Shown here in pieces: positions 3,754 to 33,334 of a stretch of 64,000 nucleotides of DNA. Origin of the DNA: Hypericibacter terrae (GTDB taxonomy: Bacteria > Pseudomonadota > Alphaproteobacteria > Dongiales > Dongiaceae); contig NZ_CP042906.1 in NCBI RefSeq assembly GCF_008728855.1, positions 372,001 through 436,000 on the forward strand, in the 5' to 3' direction. Position 1 is the first letter of the stretch. Every line of letters begins with the position of its first letter. A program made the translations under genes and the position numbers. The notes beneath the pieces were generated by a model. It was not told the origin of the DNA. It ran no database searches and saw nothing but the letters and a program-made list of their open reading frames with translations.

Positions 3754-4917
3754 CTAATTCCCCGGCCATTCGGGAGGCGGCACGAAGCGCGCGCCATGGC
3801 CGGCCAGCCGCGCCACGACCTTGGTCGAGACCGCTGGTGTCAGCGGAACATAGACGGTCGAGCCGGCGGGCGCGTCCTGAGGCGCCAGGATCGGCTTGCC
3901 CTCATAGTCGCGCCCGATCCGTGATCGATCTTCATCCACGAAAAAGTCGATCCGGCCCTCGAGCGCACCATAGAGCCACATGCCGGAGATGGAGGTGCCA
4001 AAGATTCCGAGCGGCCCCTCCTTCGACAACGTCCGGGCCCGGTCGATCACCGATTGCAACCAGGTCACGGTCGCCCGGGCGGCGCGAAAGCCCGCTGCCG
4101 CGGCGGGTCTCGGCAGAGAGGTCTGACCGCTTCGCCCGATGAAGGTGATCTCCTTGCCCAGGACCGACGTCGTTGCCGTGACGGCGGTCAAGCCGGCCCG
4201 GCTCGCCAGATAGCGCAGCGTGTCGAGGGAGAAGTGACTGAGGTGATCCGCCACCACGAGATCGAAAGGCGAGGTCTCGATGTCGGGGACCTCGATGAAG
4301 ACGCTGCCCCGGTCCTCCAGCAGTCTCGTGGCCGCGGTCACGGTCGACAGGGGTGCCGGCATATGCTCCAGCGAGTGAATCATCGACACCAGGTCATACC
4401 GGCCCGGGATCGCCTTCACATCGTCGACGGTATAGAGCGCGACGAAGTTCGGGATTTTCTCGAGAGCCGGCAGCACGCGATCGGAAAGCTCGTTTCCGTA
4501 GAGTTCCCATTGCGGCAGGATTTTCGAGAAACCGGCCAGCGCGGCGCCGTTGCCACAGCCGATGTCGATCAGCTTGCCCGTGGGCGGAAGCGCGATCGTC
4601 TTGGCGACGAAATCCACCAGCATATGAGACCGCGGCGATGCTTCGCCGCCGGCGCCGGCGAAGATGACCTGCTCGGCGCCGTCCGACAAATGATAGATCT
4701 CGTAAGCGCCATAGATCCGCCGGATCTCGTTCTGCCATTGCGCGTCGGGGATCTTCTGGATGGCGCCGCAGTCGCTGCATACGGCAAGGCTGCCGCCGGC
4801 CGGCCAGGGCTTGCAGTCCGACGTGACGCGCGGCAATGCGGTGAAGGCGCTCTGCCGTTCGAGGCCCTTCGAGCCGCAAACCTGACAAGGAAATCCGGTG
4901 TCGGTGGGATCGGTCAT
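3754..4917 (-). CDS. class I SAM-dependent methyltransferase, sugar C-methyltransferase-like
   Basis: 387-residue protein with three recognisable parts. An N-terminal zinc-type motif has C11-x2-C14 and C47-x2-C50. A class I methyltransferase fold has SAM motif I LIDIGCGNG (116-124). A C-terminal domain starts LGIFGTSISG and contains FFVDEDRSRIG, resembling the C-terminal domain of NDP-sugar C-methyltransferases. Those enzymes add a methyl branch to a 3-keto sugar. The gene sits between the transketolase pair (61 bp upstream) and an aminotransferase, which fits a nucleotide-sugar pathway. A small-molecule O-methyltransferase cannot be excluded. Confidence 0.85.
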   Translation of the reverse strand: MTDPTDTGFPCQVCGSKGLERQSAFTALPRVTSDCKPWPAGGSLAVCSDCGAIQKIPDAQWQNEIRRIYGAYEIYHLSDGAEQVIFAGAGGEASPRSHMLVDFVAKTIALPPTGKLIDIGCGNGAALAGFSKILPQWELYGNELSDRVLPALEKIPNFVALYTVDDVKAIPGRYDLVSMIHSLEHMPAPLSTVTAATRLLEDRGSVFIEVPDIETSPFDLVVADHLSHFSLDTLRYLASRAGLTAVTATTSVLGKEITFIGRSGQTSLPRPAAAAGFRAARATVTWLQSVIDRARTLSKEGPLGIFGTSISGMWLYGALEGRIDFFVDEDRSRIGRDYEGKPILAPQDAPAGSTVYVPLTPAVSTKVVARLAGHGARFVPPPEWPGN

Positions 4918-4978
4918 CGCGCCTTTCCGCCAGCCGCGCGGCCCGCCGCAACAACCGGACCCGGCGCGTCGGCCTGCT

Positions 4979-5899
4979 TCACGTCAGCCCGAGCTGCGCA
5001 CAGATGGCGCCGACGGCCAACCCATGCTCGTCCAGCAGGTCGTCATGGCTGCCATAGCAATGCTTGAACTCATCCTGCAGCGTGAAGGTGTCGAGCCGGC
5101 AATGGGCGCGGGATGTCCAGGCGATCTGCTGGACGCGCATGGAAAGGCTGCCGTTGGGTGCGCATTCCTCGATCACCACGACATGCTTGAAGCCGGCGAG
5201 GATCTGCTCGATCCGCTCCCGGTCCAGCGGCTTCAGGGTGTGAGCGGAGGCGATGGCGACGCTTTTACCGGCCGCCTCGAACCGATCCGCCACGGCAAAG
5301 GCCCGCTTCATGATCGGACCGTAGGAGAGGATGCAGACATCGCTGCCGGGCTTGATCATGCGGATTCTGCCGAATTCCCAGGGCTCGGGCGCCTTCGCGG
5401 TGAAGTCCGGCTCGCCGGCCTTGCCGAGTCTCAGATAGACCGGACCCTTCTCCTGCGCTGCGCACCAGCGCGTGGCGGCGGCCGCTTCCGAAGGATCGCA
5501 GGGCGCCACGACCGAGAGATTGGGGATCGAGCAGGCGATGCTGACATCCTCCTGCGCATGGTGGGTGGCGCCCAGGGTCGAGTAGGTGACGCCCCCGCCG
5601 ATGCCGACCACCGTCACCGGCAGGTTCTGGTAGCAGAGATCGTCGCGCACCATCTCGAAGGGACGGTAGAGCGAGAAGGTCGCGATGGTGTAGGCGAAGG
5701 GCCGCAAGCCCCGCTGCGCCATGCCGGCGGTCATGCCGATCATGATCTGCTCGGCCACGCCCGTATTGATGAAGCGCTCGGGGAAGTCCTGTCGGAACTT
5801 CGCGATCGAACCTGCCGGCGAAATGTCGGCGACAACGATGCAGAGCCGCGGATCGGCTTTGCCCAGTTCGTAGAATACGTCGGCGAACTTGTTTCTCAC
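4979..5899 (-). CDS. transketolase-like protein, C-terminal subunit
   Basis: 306-residue C-terminal half of a split transketolase: pyrimidine-binding and C-terminal domains of a thiamine-diphosphate enzyme. The cofactor-activating glutamate is E50 in NTGVAEQ, preceded by VVADISPAGS. A GTG start at 5899 is chosen because it overlaps the stop of the N-terminal half as GTGA, and because the frame upstream encodes only an alternative reading of that gene. Split two-gene transketolases move a two-carbon ketol unit; in sugar clusters such pairs can act on activated sugars rather than in central metabolism. Placement between N-half and methyltransferase genes favours the specialised role, by inference. 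Confidence 0.9.
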   Translation of the reverse strand: MRNKFADVFYELGKADPRLCIVVADISPAGSIAKFRQDFPERFINTGVAEQIMIGMTAGMAQRGLRPFAYTIATFSLYRPFEMVRDDLCYQNLPVTVVGIGGGVTYSTLGATHHAQEDVSIACSIPNLSVVAPCDPSEAAAATRWCAAQEKGPVYLRLGKAGEPDFTAKAPEPWEFGRIRMIKPGSDVCILSYGPIMKRAFAVADRFEAAGKSVAIASAHTLKPLDRERIEQILAGFKHVVVIEECAPNGSLSMRVQQIAWTSRAHCRLDTFTLQDEFKHCYGSHDDLLDEHGLAVGAICAQLGLT

Positions 5900-26546: not shown

Positions 26547-26894
26547 ATGAATCGCTTGTCTCTCGGCCTGTCACCCCTGGGGCTGAACGGCCTGTCCAAG
26601 ACCCTCGCCACCGTCGCGCAAGGGCTGCGTTCGACGCTCGGCAGCCTGCCGGCCCAGGCGCTGGCATGGCATGAGCGCCGCAAAGGCCTCGGGGCCCTGA
26701 GCGCGCTCACCGATCGTCAGCTGCGCGATATCGGCGTCTGTCGCGATGAGATCGTGATGGTGGCCTATGGCCTGAAGGATCCGCGCGATACGCCCGATAT
26801 GGTTGCGGTTTCCAGCCTCGCGACCAAAACGGTGCCGGCCGTCAAGGCGGCGGACAACGACGATCACAATCCCTGCGTAGGCTGCGCCGCCTGA
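26547..26894 (+). CDS. DUF1127 domain protein
   Basis: 115-residue basic protein with the DUF1127 (YjiS-like) motif at about 41-64: W41, RR, then LSALTDRQLRDIGV. In other alphaproteobacteria small DUF1127 proteins affect RNA turnover and phosphate or stress responses. Here the motif is flanked by a 40-residue N-terminal part and a C-terminal tail ending NPCVGCAA, a CxxC pair that is not part of the usual domain. The ATG has a strong GAGGAGG 7 nt upstream. The gene converges with the next one, 9 bp away. Confidence 0.82.
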   Translation: MNRLSLGLSPLGLNGLSKTLATVAQGLRSTLGSLPAQALAWHERRKGLGALSALTDRQLRDIGVCRDEIVMVAYGLKDPRDTPDMVAVSSLATKTVPAVKAADNDDHNPCVGCAA

Positions 26895-26903
26895 AGCGGC
26901 AGG

Positions 26904-28622
26904 TCAGGGGGCCGGACAAGCCGGCAGGAAGCCGGAGATCTCGGCCAGGAACCGGACCCACGCGGGCTCATGCTCGAGAATGATGTGGTTGCGACTCTCG
27001 AGCGGCACGAAGCGGGCGCCGCGGATGCCGCTGGCGAGCTCGCGGCCGCAATCGAACGGGACCACCGCATCGCCCCGGCTGTGCAGCACCAGGGTCGGCA
27101 CCTTCACCTGGCCCAACAGATCGCGGACATCGATATCGCTGAAGGCCTCGGTGAGGCGGTAGGCGTTCTGCGGCGAGGCCGTGATGCGCTGCAGCTCGTT
27201 CCACCAGTTCGCCTGCTCGGGCGTCGCGTCGGGCAGGTAGAGTGACGTGAAGATCTGACGATAGGCCGGACTCTCCTGGCCCCAGCCCTGCAGCGTCAGG
27301 GTCTGCAGCGCCTCGCGGCGTGCGATCTCGCCCGGCGACCCGCGCCTGCGCCAGCCGCGCGCATAGCCGCCGGCGAGAATGAGGCGTGTCACCCGCTCCG
27401 GATGGCGCACCGCGTAGGCGATCGACACCGCACAGCCTTGCGAGATCCCGAACAGGGGAAAGCGGTCGAGCCCGGCCGCATCGATCACCGTCTCCAGATC
27501 GTGGAGGAACGATTCGAAGCTCAAATCCGGGGTCGACCAGTCCGATAGCCCGTTGCCGCGCTCGTCATAGCGGACCAACTGATGGTGGCGCGCCAGCGCA
27601 TGCAGCAGATGGCGCCAGACCGGACTCTGCCAGTCGAACTCGAGATGATTGAGCCAGTTTGCGGTCTTCACCAGCGGCGGACCCTGGCCGGCCGTGCCAT
27701 AGGCGATCCGCGTGCCGTCCGGCGCGGTGCAGAAGCGGATCTCCTGCTCGATATCGCGGAGCGGCGCGATCGTCGCATCGCCGGCGGCGGGTGGATCGCT
27801 CCGCTCCATCACCGCGACCGCGCCAGGCGCAGCCGCCTTTCGGGAGATGGGGTTGTAGCCGAGGCTGGGCCCACGCCCCTCCGGACCGGATGGTGCCGGC
27901 GGCAGCTCGCGCAGTTCCTGCCAGGCCAGCGTCAACATGGCGGCGGGGGCGCCGCTCAATTCCTGGATATGCCGGCGCGCGATCTCGAATTGCTGCTCGG
28001 CCTCGTTGGCGAGACCGTTGCGCATCAGCAGCCGGACAAACGCTGTTCGCGCCTCTTCGCAGTCCGGCTCGACCTCGATCATGCGCCGCATATAGGTCAG
28101 TGCTTCCTCCGGCCGGGACTCGCCCAGCCGGTTTGCCAGCTGGAACAGGGTCCGGGCATGCAGGATGCGCGCCTGCTCGCGCTCCGCCACCATCCAGGAT
28201 TGGAAGCCGGGGCAGCGATCGAGCTCGATGCCGTCGAGGAAGGGGCCGCGGAACGCCTTCAAGGCCGCGGTCAGGACGGGCTGCGGCGCGCCGTCGAAAT
28301 CCTCGTCGATCGATTCACGGATTCTCAGCAGATCGACATCGATGTCGCGGCAATCGAGCGAAACGCTCTCGCGGTCCGCGCCGAGCCTTTCCCGTCGCTC
28401 GTCGTTGACCAGCGTGCGCAGCTTCGAGAGGCTCCAGCGCAGCGATCCGCGCGGATCGTCGGGCAGGTCCCAGAACATCTCGCAGAGCTTGTCGCGCGAA
28501 TGAGCGCGGCCCGTGACCGCCAGATAGGCGAGGAGCGCCCGCGTCTTCTTCGATTGCGGCAGCGGCAGGGTGGCGCCGTCCCGCGCCAGCTCCATCCTGC
28601 CCAAGACCCGAAGTGTCAGCAT
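26904..28622 (-). CDS. BTAD-type transcription factor fused to alpha/beta hydrolase
   Basis: 572 residues. Residues 1-95 form an OmpR/SARP-like winged-helix DNA-binding domain (LTLRVLGRMELARDG, RALLAYLAV). Residues 95-240 form a bacterial transcriptional activator (BTAD, TPR-like) domain. A linker leads into an alpha/beta hydrolase at about 292-568 that starts RFCTAPDGTRIAYGTAGQG. The catalytic triad fits S394 in FGISQGCA, D518 in HSRGDAVVP and H546 in SRNHIILE, so the hydrolase looks active. It reads away from a diiron-protein gene (start 28842), so it probably controls that operon and itself from the 219-bp shared region. A hydrolase acting as ligand sensor is inferred. Confidence 0.88.
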   Translation of the reverse strand: MLTLRVLGRMELARDGATLPLPQSKKTRALLAYLAVTGRAHSRDKLCEMFWDLPDDPRGSLRWSLSKLRTLVNDERRERLGADRESVSLDCRDIDVDLLRIRESIDEDFDGAPQPVLTAALKAFRGPFLDGIELDRCPGFQSWMVAEREQARILHARTLFQLANRLGESRPEEALTYMRRMIEVEPDCEEARTAFVRLLMRNGLANEAEQQFEIARRHIQELSGAPAAMLTLAWQELRELPPAPSGPEGRGPSLGYNPISRKAAAPGAVAVMERSDPPAAGDATIAPLRDIEQEIRFCTAPDGTRIAYGTAGQGPPLVKTANWLNHLEFDWQSPVWRHLLHALARHHQLVRYDERGNGLSDWSTPDLSFESFLHDLETVIDAAGLDRFPLFGISQGCAVSIAYAVRHPERVTRLILAGGYARGWRRRGSPGEIARREALQTLTLQGWGQESPAYRQIFTSLYLPDATPEQANWWNELQRITASPQNAYRLTEAFSDIDVRDLLGQVKVPTLVLHSRGDAVVPFDCGRELASGIRGARFVPLESRNHIILEHEPAWVRFLAEISGFLPACPAP

Positions 28623-28841
28623 GACATCTCTTTCGCGCTGCCGCGACGGGCCGGTTCCCCTGGGGGACCTGGGCGGTGGCCGATCGCCGCACGCTCCGAT
28701 GTTGCGTGATTTCCACGCCAGTTACAACGAATGGGCCTGGGATTCAACGCCTATCGCCACCGCATTTCTCACGGCCCAGGGGGAAATTCCTCCCCGACGC
28801 GAGGCCATCCTGCGGTCTCGCCTGGAACATGAGGAAAACAC

Positions 28842-29756
28842 ATGACGATCGAGGGTTTTAGCTACGAAGCCACATTGGCGGCCTCGCAGCGCGCCAATTG
28901 GCGCATCGAAGACATCATTGGCAGCGACAAGCGTCTCGACTTCTCCAGGCCCTTCCTGCCGGAGGTCCTGGCTCAGACCGAGAAGCTGACCTTCCTGAGC
29001 CCCGACGAGCGCCGGGTGCTGAACCAGATCCGGGGCCATGGCTATCTCTACATCTTCGGCCTGGTCGAGGAATTCATCCTGCCCTTCCTCATGGACCATA
29101 CCCGCGCCCGGCTCGATCGCGACGATCACCAGGTGCGCGCGCTGCTCCAGTTCGCCAGCGAGGAGGCCAAGCATATTCACCTCTTCAAGCGCTTCTGCGC
29201 CGAGTTCGAGGCGGGCTTCGGCCATGCCTGTGCGGCGATCGGGCCGGCCGATGCCGTCGCCAAGGCGGTTCTGGCCCATCATCCGCTCGGGGTGGCACTG
29301 GCGATCCTGCAGATCGAATGGATGACGCAACGCCATTATGTCGACAGCGTGAAGGACGATCTCGGGATCGACCCGCAGTTCGCGAGCCTCCTGAAGCATC
29401 ACTGGCAGGAGGAATGCCAGCACGCCAAGCTCGACACGCTCATGGTGATGGGCATGGCGGAGACCTGTTCGACGGCCGAGATCGAGAAGGGCATCGAGGA
29501 TTATCTCGCCATCGGCGGCTTCATCGATAAGGGTCTTGAGCAGCAGGTGGCGTTCGACCGCGAGAGCTTCGAGCGCGCCACCGGTCGCAGGCTGACCGCC
29601 AGCGAAGCGGAGATCTTCGGACAGCTGCAGCATCAAGCCAATCGCTGGACCTTCCTCGGTTCCGGGATGACCCATCCGCGCTTCCTGGCGACGCTGGGCG
29701 CGCTCGGACCGCAGCACCGCCAGCGCATCGAATCGATCGCGCCGGCCTTCTGCTAG
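28842..29756 (+). CDS. ferritin-like diiron protein (probable oxygenase/oxidase)
   Basis: 304-residue all-helical protein. Two ExxH-type metal motifs, EEAKH (107-111) and EECQH (190-194), together with E76/E77 and E159, fit a four-helix diiron-carboxylate site as in ferritin-like oxygenases. A precise family is not recognised; AurF-like N-oxygenases are one possibility. ATG preceded by GAGGAAAACAC. It is first in a unit with the OsmC gene 50 bp downstream and is divergent from the BTAD-hydrolase regulator. Oxidative chemistry or peroxide/metal handling is inferred from the partner. Confidence 0.75.
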   Translation: MTIEGFSYEATLAASQRANWRIEDIIGSDKRLDFSRPFLPEVLAQTEKLTFLSPDERRVLNQIRGHGYLYIFGLVEEFILPFLMDHTRARLDRDDHQVRALLQFASEEAKHIHLFKRFCAEFEAGFGHACAAIGPADAVAKAVLAHHPLGVALAILQIEWMTQRHYVDSVKDDLGIDPQFASLLKHHWQEECQHAKLDTLMVMGMAETCSTAEIEKGIEDYLAIGGFIDKGLEQQVAFDRESFERATGRRLTASEAEIFGQLQHQANRWTFLGSGMTHPRFLATLGALGPQHRQRIESIAPAFC

Positions 29757-29806
29757 GCCCGCTCCCGATCGTGCCCGCATTTCAACCCTGCGTATGGAGA
29801 CCGACA

Positions 29807-30379
29807 ATGAACGACATGACGCCCATGAAGGCCCCCACCCATGTGAACGGTTTCGATCTGGCGAAGATCGAGGCCCTCGTCGCAGGCATCCAGCGCGATC
29901 CCGGCCAGGCCCGGATCGAGTTCAAGGTGCGATCGGCCTGGAAGGGCCAGACCCGCAGCGACGGCCAAGTCGAGAGCTATCGGCTGGGCGGCCAGGAGAT
30001 CCGCCGCGACTTCCACATCGCCGCCGACGAGCCGCTGGAGCTCGACGGCAGCAACATCGCGCCCAACCCGCAGGAGCTGCTGATGGCGGCCCTCAACGCC
30101 TGCATGATCGTGGGCTATGCCGCCAATGCCGCGCTCCGGGGCGTGTCGCTCGACCGGCTCGAGATCGAGGCCGAGGGCGCCCTCGACCTGCGCGGCTTCC
30201 TCGGTCTCGATGCTTCGGTGCCGGCGGGCTACGAGACGATGCAGGTCCGGGTGCATATGAGCGGCAACGGCTCGCCCGAGCAGTTCCGCGAGATCCATGC
30301 GGCGGTGCAGGCGACCTCGCCCAACCTCTTCAATCTCACCCGCGCCATCCGGATCGAGCCCGAGCTGGTCCTGGCCTGA
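29807..30379 (+). CDS. OsmC-family protein lacking the resolving cysteine
   Basis: 190-residue OsmC/Ohr-type protein. The peroxidatic cysteine C99 is in LLMAALNACMIVGYA, preceded by GGQEIRRDFHIAADEP. The second, resolving cysteine normally found in a CPxS motif is replaced by serine S171 in QATSPNLFNL, as in OsmC relatives of unclear function. ATG at 29807 has TGGAGACC upstream. Cytoplasmic. Co-directional with the diiron gene and followed by a strong hairpin, so the pair is probably one transcript. A canonical two-cysteine peroxidase role is doubtful. Confidence 0.87.
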   Translation: MNDMTPMKAPTHVNGFDLAKIEALVAGIQRDPGQARIEFKVRSAWKGQTRSDGQVESYRLGGQEIRRDFHIAADEPLELDGSNIAPNPQELLMAALNACMIVGYAANAALRGVSLDRLEIEAEGALDLRGFLGLDASVPAGYETMQVRVHMSGNGSPEQFREIHAAVQATSPNLFNLTRAIRIEPELVLA

Positions 30380-30433: not shown

Positions 30434-30571
30434 TGCCTCCTGGCCGTGCGTCGCTAGAGTCGGTTCCGACGGGCCGCCGGCGTCATGCCCGGCCGGTACC
30501 AGCTCCAAGCCGCCCTGGTAGAGGCGGCCGGAAACATTGCGAGGGAGGGCGCGGCCTCGGGGCTGCAAGCC

Positions 30572-33334
30572 ATGTGGCAATCCGATCTCAATCTGATCGG
30601 CACGAAATACCGTCTGCCGCCCTTGAACGCTGCGGCCGTCGACCGGCGACGGCTGCATGCGCTGCTGGCGCGCGCCGAGGGCAGCCGCCTCACGACCATC
30701 GCGGCTCCGGCCGGCTTCGGCAAGACCACGCTCCTGCTGCAGTGGGCCCGGCGCCTGGAGACGGAGGCGGTTCCCGTCGCCTGGCTCTCGCTCGACGAGG
30801 ATGACGACGAGGTCGGCCGCTTCCTCTGCTACCTGATCGCCGCGATCCAGGCGGCCCAGCCGCGCCTCGGCAAGGGCGCGGTGTCGCTGCTGCGCTCGAG
30901 CCCGAATCTCCCGGTGGCGCCGGCGCTGGCGAGCCTGGTCAACGATCTGTCGCGCATCGAGGGCCGGTTCACCGTCATGCTCGACGATGTCCATTGGCTG
31001 ACCCAGCCGGCCCTGCTGCAGGCCCTCGAGAGCCTCCTGACCTATGCCCCGGCCTCGGTGCATTTCGTCCTCGCCGGCCGCGGCACCCTGCCGCTGGCGG
31101 CCGCGCGGCTCAAGGTGCGCGGACAGGTGACCGAGCTCCATGAAGCCGATCTGCGCTTCGATCTCGACGAGACGCAGGAGTTCCTCAACACGCAGCGCGC
31201 GCTCGCCCTGTCCTCCGCCGATCTCGTGGTGTTGCAGCACCGCACCGAAGGCTGGGCCGCGGGCCTGCAACTGGCTTCGCTGTCGCTGGAACGCCGGGTC
31301 GAGCGCAGCGCCTTCATCGACAGCTTCTCCGGCACCGACCGCGACATCGCGGACTTTCTCGCCAGCGACGTCTTCACCCGCCAGCCCCGCGCGCTGCAGG
31401 ATTTCATGCTGCGCACGGCGTTCCTCAAACGCATGAATGCGGACCTCGCGGGCGCGCTCGCCGATCTGACGTCGTCCGAGGCGGCCGACATGCTCAAGCG
31501 CATCGAGCGCGCGGGGCTTTTCCTGGTGCCGCTCGACAGCGAGGAGCGCTGGTTCCGATATCATCATCTCTTCAGCGATTTCCTGCGCCACCAGATGGTG
31601 CGCCGGCAGCCCGAGGCGATCCCGGAACTCCATCTCAAGGCCGCCGCCTGGCTCGAAGCCGCGGGCGAAACCGCCGATTCCATCCATCACCTGCTGGCAG
31701 CCGACGCCGGCGAGGCGGCGGCCGACAAGGTCGAGGCCTGCGCCATGGATCTGATCCGTCAGAGCCACATGCTGCGCCTCAGCGACTGGCTGCGCCGCCT
31801 GCCCGAAGCCCTGGTGCAGCGCCGTCCGCGTCTGTTGCTGAGCCTGGTCTGGCTGCAGTTCCAGTTCAACCGGCCGATCGAGGCGGCGCGGGCCCTGCGC
31901 CTGGCGCGCCGCGCCATCGCCCATTCCGCGGCCGACGAAGCGCAGCGCCTGCAATGGCAGAGCGAGCTGCGGGTGCTGATGTGCGGCGTGGTCAGCGCCA
32001 GCGACCGTTCCGCCCGCGCCCGCGCTCTGGCGCGGCGCTGGATTCCGGATCTGCCGGAAGACCAGCCCTTCCTGAGCGGGGCGCTCAAGAACATCCTGGC
32101 CTATTGCGAATATTCGCTGGGCAATCTCGCCGCCGCGCGCGAGGCCGCTCATGCGGGGCGCCGCAGCCATGTCCGCTCGCAATCGCTCCTCGGTCTCGTC
32201 TACGCCGATCTCATCCTGGGATTGACCGAGAAGGCGGCGGGCGACCTCAAGGAGGCGGGTGGCCTTTTCACACGCGCCAGAAGCATCGCCGACGAATCGC
32301 TCGGCGCCGGCTCCTATGCCGCGGCCCTGGTGGGCGTGTTCCAGGGCGAGCTGCATTACGAATGGAACAATCTCGAGGTCGCCGCGCGCTCGCTCGACGA
32401 ATATCGCGACATCGTCGAGGAAAGCGCGCTGATGGCGCACGAGACCGTGGCCGCCGTGCTGGGCGCCCGGCTCGAGGCGGCGCAGGGCCGCATCGATGCC
32501 GCGCTGGCCAGTCTCGACCGCGTCGAGCGCCGTCACGGCACGCGGGTGCGCCATACGCGGCTGGGTGCCGGTCTGCTCCATGAACGGGTGCGGCTGCTGC
32601 TGAGCCGCGACGACCGCATGGGGGCGAGGCTCGCGATCCAGAATTTCGGGATCGATGCCGATAGCGGCCAGTTCTCGCGCCCGGTGGCGCCGGTGCCCTC
32701 CTCGGATCTGGAGCGGCTGGCGCTGGCGCGGCTCTGGATCGCCGAAGGCCGGTCGGGCGCGGCCGTCGCGGCGCTGGATTCGCTGGCGGCACGCCTGGTT
32801 CAGCAAGGGCGGGGCCGGCGCCTGCTCCAGGTGCGTCTGCTCTCGGCGATCGCGGGCCTCAAGGCCGGCAGCAACGATGCCGCCGAGCGCGCGCTGCTGG
32901 CGTCGATCGTCGAGGCCCGCCGGCAGAATCTGCTGCGCAGCTTCCTCGACGAAGGCGCGCCCGCGGCCGAGGTGATCGAGCGGCTGCGGCGACGCTGTGC
33001 CAGCCGGGCGGCGGCCGACCTGATCGGCAGCGAGCTTGAACCGGTGCGGCGCTATCTCGACCGGTTGGCCTCCGCCTTCGGCTCGCAGCGGTTGGGCCCG
33101 GCCCGGGCGCGGCCCGATCATCCCGCCCTCCATCTCAGCCAGCGTGAGCTCGAGGTGGTGAAGCTGCTCTGCAACGGCTTCAGCAACCATCAGCTTTCGC
33201 GCCATCTCGCCATCTCGCCGGACACGGTGAAATGGCATCTCAAGAACATCTTCGGGAAGCTCGGCGTCGACAACCGGTCCCAGGCCATCGTGGCCGCCGA
33301 GCGGCTCGGGTTGATCTCGATCCGCGAGCAGTAG
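30572..33334 (+). CDS. MalT-like STAND ATPase, LuxR-type transcriptional regulator
   Basis: About 920 residues. Order: NTPase domain with Walker A APAGFGKTT (45-53) and Walker B VMLDDVHW (D138/D139); a winged-helix/helical region (WFRYHHLFSDFLRHQM); a long TPR-like helical array (about 380-820); and a C-terminal LuxR helix-turn-helix (LSQRELEVVKLLCNGFSNHQ, TVKWHLKNIFGKLGVDN). This is the MalT/AlkS architecture: ligand binding to the TPR part and ATP control oligomerisation and activation. An in-frame ATG at 30485 would add 29 residues and the start is uncertain. Targets are unknown. It may act on the adjacent OsmC unit or on the amidohydrolase/ABC block, or on other genes elsewhere. Confidence 0.88.
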   Translation: MWQSDLNLIGTKYRLPPLNAAAVDRRRLHALLARAEGSRLTTIAAPAGFGKTTLLLQWARRLETEAVPVAWLSLDEDDDEVGRFLCYLIAAIQAAQPRLGKGAVSLLRSSPNLPVAPALASLVNDLSRIEGRFTVMLDDVHWLTQPALLQALESLLTYAPASVHFVLAGRGTLPLAAARLKVRGQVTELHEADLRFDLDETQEFLNTQRALALSSADLVVLQHRTEGWAAGLQLASLSLERRVERSAFIDSFSGTDRDIADFLASDVFTRQPRALQDFMLRTAFLKRMNADLAGALADLTSSEAADMLKRIERAGLFLVPLDSEERWFRYHHLFSDFLRHQMVRRQPEAIPELHLKAAAWLEAAGETADSIHHLLAADAGEAAADKVEACAMDLIRQSHMLRLSDWLRRLPEALVQRRPRLLLSLVWLQFQFNRPIEAARALRLARRAIAHSAADEAQRLQWQSELRVLMCGVVSASDRSARARALARRWIPDLPEDQPFLSGALKNILAYCEYSLGNLAAAREAAHAGRRSHVRSQSLLGLVYADLILGLTEKAAGDLKEAGGLFTRARSIADESLGAGSYAAALVGVFQGELHYEWNNLEVAARSLDEYRDIVEESALMAHETVAAVLGARLEAAQGRIDAALASLDRVERRHGTRVRHTRLGAGLLHERVRLLLSRDDRMGARLAIQNFGIDADSGQFSRPVAPVPSSDLERLALARLWIAEGRSGAAVAALDSLAARLVQQGRGRRLLQVRLLSAIAGLKAGSNDAAERALLASIVEARRQNLLRSFLDEGAPAAEVIERLRRRCASRAAADLIGSELEPVRRYLDRLASAFGSQRLGPARARPDHPALHLSQRELEVVKLLCNGFSNHQLSRHLAISPDTVKWHLKNIFGKLGVDNRSQAIVAAERLGLISIREQ

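Follow-up and report, generated by a model that had tools for sequence, protein, structure and literature searches.

In Streptomyces, the SARP-LAL regulator PimR has a main operator of three direct repeats, which are separated by 4-bp spacers and lie in the promoter of the target (PMC5930380). For DAD2, the catalytic triad is required for signalling and turnover is slow (PMC3531792). Among hydrolases that need their triad in perception, the plant proteins D14/KAI2 are the precedent studied best. Sensor-swapped SARPs and fusions of hydrolases to cyclases are kinds of protein already known. No described BTAD-hydrolase or wHTH-hydrolase regulator was found in the open-access literature, which does not prove that there is none. 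Relative to the literature searched, the new element of the locus presented here is a BTAD regulator whose probable sensor is a hydrolase and for which a candidate operator is defined.

The window (the whole stretch of 64 000 nucleotides of Hypericibacter terrae DNA that was analysed) contains the features listed in Table 1. The alpha/beta hydrolase part of the regulator is abbreviated as ABH. We hold with good confidence that the protein is a one-component activator of the SARP/BTAD type, with a ligand sensor derived from a hydrolase, acting on the diiron/OsmC operon.

Table 1. Coordinates in the window of the regulator, its predicted operator and its probable targets
Feature	Position	Strand	Remarks and basis
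BTAD-ABH transcription regulator	26904..28622	-	whole gene, 572 aa, ATG start; ORF and Pfam
N-terminal winged-helix and BTAD region	27903..28622	-	residues 1-240; PF03704 and homology
ABH module, probable sensor	26907..27767	-	residues 286-572; PF00561, PDB relatives, model and fold match
S394 codon	27441..27443	-	nucleophile in GISQG; sequence alignment
D518 codon	27069..27071	-	triad acid (RGD); sequence alignment
H546 codon	26985..26987	-	triad base (NH); sequence alignment
Predicted BTAD operator	28710..28729	+	TTTCCACG-CCAG-TTACAACG; two half-sites, 12-bp period, pointing to the diiron gene
Possible third half-site	28742..28749	+	ATTCAACG; 20 bp downstream of the second, kept in the same-genus genome
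AurF-like diiron protein, probable target gene	28842..29756	+	PF11583, 28.6 bits; divergent from the regulator
OsmC-like protein, encoded second in the probable target operon	29804..30379	+	PF02566, E 1.2e-16

An earlier note, made from the letters alone, had described the regulator as a winged helix plus BTAD domain followed by a hydrolase, and this order is borne out by the open reading frame and by Pfam, with a winged helix that is probable from layout and homology. BTAD (PF03704) was matched at residues 116-237 (E 8.6e-9, 36.3 bits for a cut-off of 22.1) and Abhydrolase_1 (PF00561) at residues 334-549 (E 5.4e-17, above the curated cut-off). A linker of about 50 aa (residues 241-288) lies between the BTAD domain and the hydrolase. 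None of the Pfam DNA-binding models matched the N-terminal ~100 aa, so the winged-helix label is based on homology and on the operator evidence. The layout of these ~100 aa is the one usual in BTAD/SARP winged helices, and the N-terminal region is 35-53% identical to that of other BTAD regulators adjoining the same operator motif. The same-genus orthologue is 91% identical in the ABH part and 79% in the BTAD part, with the gene order kept. The AlphaFold model was computed from an alignment of 24 sequences. Its pLDDT is mostly >90 in the hydrolase and <50 across much of residues 1-144; the winged helix and part of the BTAD domain are poorly modelled because few full-length relatives are usable. 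Both motifs quoted earlier from the opening of the hydrolase, DGTRIAYGTAGQG and RYDERGNGLSDW, are found in the protein.

A first genome scan gave 24 loci with hydrolase domains roughly 50-70% identical to that of the window. Whole-genome searches yielded 60 distinct hydrolase copies and a phylum-wide sample ten more (n = 70). Fusion to a signalling output was found in 69 of the 70 copies, the partners being an OmpR-type winged helix (22), a class III cyclase (17), a LuxR HTH (15), a BTAD domain (14) and an AraC HTH (1). The first 60 copies comprise 21 OmpR, 16 class III cyclase, 12 BTAD and nine C-terminal LuxR HTH fusions, one AraC fusion and one membrane-anchored protein, the last two assignments being read from the sequences. 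All ten copies of the phylum-wide sample are fused (six to LuxR, two to BTAD, one to a cyclase and one to OmpR). When the first 60 hydrolase domains are placed on a tree, no fewer than 12 partner changes are required, although the well-supported branches alone force fewer. The resemblance to hydrolases attached to cyclases and other DNA-binding domains, named in the earlier note, was right. Since the hydrolase sequence is kept while the outputs vary, the domain looks, from architecture, like an input domain, and it is the probable chemical sensor of the regulator. Hydrolase-regulators without a diiron gene adjoin varied genes, such as an OsmC-like gene alone (L022 and L136) or a distant relative of AurF (L139). 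The subfamily, marked by the motif NWLNHLEFDWQSP, is therefore apparently a general input module of Pseudomonadota and some others, with ligands that probably differ between regulators.

The hydrolase belongs to the alpha/beta hydrolase superfamily by its fold (PF00561, model and PDB matches) and by its Ser-Asp-His triad. The triad proposed earlier was recovered, residues 394, 518 and 546 being S, D and H. With the hydrolase model, Foldseek placed esterases, perhydrolases and enol-lactonases nearest (1va4, TMt 0.84; 2xua, 0.84), and the solved-structure matches also include D14/DAD2, KAI2 and RsbQ. At the oxyanion-loop region, NWLNHLEFDWQSP is near-invariant in the subfamily and replaces the usual HG; the residues of this motif and of the triad are among the most conserved columns of the subfamily alignment. 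The triad states of the 70 hydrolases are SDH (57), CDH (7), SEH (5) and SEN (1). The loss of the triad in orthologues, which the earlier note had named as evidence against its reading, was not observed: all 14 BTAD fusions are SDH, and the nucleophile is Ser or Cys in 70 of 70 copies. Given this conservation across the subfamily, the hydrolase domain of the window is likely to be catalytically competent. Turnover is not necessarily conserved, since Cys replaces Ser in seven of the 70 relatives.

The hydrolases with a Cys nucleophile (GxCQG) and the Asp and His kept (L028, L029, L030, L031, L032, L036 and L191) are every one of the LuxR-HTH type and form a natural set of Ser-to-Cys variants. 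The cyclase-fused hydrolase of L066 has a degenerate triad (Glu at the Asp position, Asn at the His position) and a very long branch in the tree.

These data bear on what the hydrolase does with its ligand. It may be an active enzyme that, by turnover, breaks down the inducer or changes it into another compound, as feedback or trigger enzymes do, in which case the protein would be bifunctional. We consider this a real possibility, at somewhat less than an even chance. The triads intact in 57 of the 70 copies, including every BTAD fusion, argue for it, as does a fold nearest to true esterases, perhydrolases and enol-lactonases, but the members with Ser replaced by Cys (seven), Asp by Glu (five) or the His lost (one) are all still fused to an output, and the HG sequence usual in the oxyanion loop gives way to the subfamily motif. 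A receptor that uses the catalytic Ser for binding or slow covalent capture, like plant D14/KAI2, with hydrolysis resetting the switch, is an option that we retain tentatively. It is consistent with the presence of D14/DAD2, KAI2 and RsbQ among the structural matches, with the precedent of DAD2 (PMC3531792) and with a nucleophile kept in all copies; against it, D14/KAI2 are no nearer in sequence than ordinary esterases. Both alternatives are sub-cases of the activator reading, and sequence cannot separate them.

The pairing of the regulator with the diiron gene was assessed in 385 genomes of the host's class, with presence thresholds of E<1e-100 for the diiron gene and E<1e-50 for the hydrolase module. 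The diiron gene was detected in 11 genomes, the hydrolase module in 29 and both in six; in all six they lie side by side. A BTAD-ABH regulator adjoins the diiron gene in the window, in the same-genus genome G001, in G138 and in G338, and an OmpR-wHTH-ABH regulator does so in G071, G108, G011 and G012. BTAD proteins with ATPase/TPR or other C-termini take this place in G045, G002, G009, G013 and at the second copy of G108, an AraC regulator in G277 and a LysR regulator in G629. Among the loci examined, only that of G245 has no obvious regulator in the neighbourhood of the diiron gene. The OsmC gene follows the diiron gene in the window, G001, G138, G338, G002, the second copy of G108 and G277. 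The G277 locus was read by hand, and the regulator of G010 and the diiron and OsmC genes of G001 came from anchored gene calling. As regulators with exchanged DNA-binding and sensor domains adjoin the same diiron gene, the target appears constant. The pairing of OmpR-ABH regulators with it argues that the hydrolase input, beyond the BTAD domain alone, is part of this regulation.

The diiron protein belongs to a distinct AurF-like group (52-79% identity) that lies just under the Pfam AurF cut-off, its own score being marginally under the gathering value of 29.6 bits. The motifs EEF, EEAKH, EW and EExxH are invariant in 15 aligned diiron proteins. Searching PDB sequences with this protein brought up no credible match. 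In the OsmC-like protein one Cys is kept (NAC), and a Ser (TSPN) stands at the position of the second Cys of classical OsmC/Ohr proteins; the homologues that adjoin diiron genes share both features. Downstream of the OsmC gene, the window encodes a 949-aa MalT-like regulator of the LuxR family (30485-33334), whose presence at this position was otherwise observed only for the same-genus genome.

The gap between the regulator and the diiron gene contains a block conserved between the window and its same-genus relative. A scan of this gap for sigma-70-like promoters gave none. The pattern TTNCNACG-N4-TTNCNACG was defined by eye from direct repeats common to four BTAD loci, and was also found at L095 and L143, two loci outside its definition. 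It has one match in the 64-kb window, for 0.01 expected. The genome-wide search was restricted to exact matches and gave two in 5.89 Mb, with none for the reversed-pattern control; the second (C1:1031397) falls within a coding ORF and was not accepted as evidence of a regulon.

An operator matrix was built from five loci and applied to 13 other BTAD loci, one of which (G001) is the same-genus orthologue and hence dependent on the window. Seven of the 13 scored >=17, and an eighth (L180) scored 16.5 with a four-repeat array; longer arrays of three or four repeats are present at several matrix-positive BTAD loci. The array is missing at the five others (L099, L129, L144 and two tandem-regulator loci). 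Among the control loci, two of 50 (605 kb) scored >=17, one being L160, which had been fetched because of its site; without it, the count is one of 49 (about 597 kb). At L094, an OmpR-ABH/diiron control pair, a good operator match lies at the start of the regulator gene and is an unexplained exception. At each of the positive loci tested, the 12-bp period outscored the neighbouring spacings (8-11 and 13-15). Where a BTAD locus has both the operator and the diiron gene, the two point the same way (8/8 loci). The array is missing at three of the four OmpR-ABH diiron loci and at the AraC locus, and is present at BTAD loci without a diiron gene. It therefore tracks the BTAD domain and not the target, and behaves as an operator should. 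The tandem direct repeats at 28710-28729, a putative operator near the promoter of the probable target and recurring at further BTAD loci, are of the kind expected for a SARP-type regulator.

L178 and L181 each have two long BTAD regulators in tandem and no TTNCNACG array. L143 is a BTAD-ABH locus without the diiron gene; there (3757-5009), a perfect repeat pair precedes an uncharacterised ORF of 393 aa by about 50 bp. This ORF, which comes after the regulator and a gene of 225 aa, would be a distinct probable target served by the same operator.

The earlier note had proposed that the regulator governs the divergent diiron-OsmC operon, and this gains support from adjacency in unrelated genomes and from the BTAD-specific candidate operator in the shared promoter. 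On this sequence evidence, there is good support for a regulatory link from the regulator to the divergent diiron gene, and the regulator very likely switches on the neighbouring diiron and OsmC genes. It is improbable that it controls itself or the upstream RND pump and stands beside the diiron operon incidentally: RND pump and DUF1127 genes do flank its 3' side, but among the loci examined they do so in the same genus only, whereas pairing with the diiron gene is found again in different families, the regulator domains being exchanged, and the operator, which points towards the diiron gene, sits in the promoter common to both. The flanking DUF1127 gene of the window is at 26547-26894. Small DUF1127-like ORFs, read from sequence, were also seen upstream of the diiron gene at L088, L089, L090 and L099.

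In the activator reading, two or more cooperating monomers would bind the tandem TTNCNACG repeats (28710-28729, possibly to 28749) through their winged helix/BTAD regions and would recruit RNA polymerase to the AurF-like diiron/OsmC operon. Input would come through the hydrolase module: its pocket would admit a small compound (acyl, ester or lactone) that engages S394, either non-covalently or as an acyl-enzyme, and the resulting change in the hydrolase and linker would alter BTAD oligomerization or DNA binding. The computed basis of this scheme is the architecture, the triad, the near-obligatory fusion to an output, the pairing with the diiron gene and the BTAD-specific repeats. Activation itself, rather than repression, the class of the ligand and the role of catalysis are steps that we infer. 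A hydrolase that is a mere remnant or a structural (dimerization) domain without ligand sensing would fit the altered triads of a few members, but is very improbable given that the triad and subfamily-motif columns are among the most conserved and that the module has been exchanged among outputs of five types, as an input domain would be.

A wider proposal, rather speculative at present, is that of a widespread and as yet undescribed bacterial family of one-component receptors, in which a catalytically complete hydrolase with nucleophile-based perception, as in D14/KAI2, would be wired to swappable DNA-binding or cyclase domains. A testable circuit is now defined by the hydrolase sensor, the candidate operator and the target operon. 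With a single ligand and a set of triad mutants, it would become visible how bacteria perceive small molecules through a serine-hydrolase pocket, and the conserved pairing with regulators offers a way into the uncharacterised AurF-like/OsmC operon.

Several described systems share part of this organization. Like PimR, the regulator has a BTAD domain, after a probable winged helix, in its N-terminal part and a swappable C-terminal module, and the promoter of the adjacent probable target likewise carries direct repeats in tandem, spaced by 4 bp. It differs from PimR in its input, an alpha/beta hydrolase instead of a cyclase-like/large ATP-binding part, in its repeat unit (8 bp + 4, with a TTNCNACG core and a period of 12 bp, where PimR has CGGCAAG heptamers and a period of 11 bp) and in its probable target, a diiron/OsmC operon in a proteobacterium. 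With cyclases of the Rv1900c/LipJ type it shares a related hydrolase domain fused to a signalling output, which is transcription here and a cyclic nucleotide there. The NCBIfam LipJ model (NF058673) matched residues 306-547 (E 6.7e-23); assignment to LipJ was rejected, the score being 81 bits for a cut-off of 800 and the protein having no C-terminal cyclase. The nearest enzymes in sequence and fold are PcaD (3-oxoadipate enol-lactonase) and aryl esterases/perhydrolases. Assignment to PcaD (TIGR02427) was also rejected (101.9 bits for an equivalog cut-off of 255.85); unlike PcaD, the hydrolase of the window is not a stand-alone metabolic enzyme, and its oxyanion-loop sequence differs. With D14/KAI2 and RsbQ, the window hydrolase, whose sensing role is proposed, has in common the fold, an intact triad and a kept nucleophile. 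Those proteins are free-standing and act via partner proteins, whereas the hydrolase described here is fused to a DNA-binding domain.
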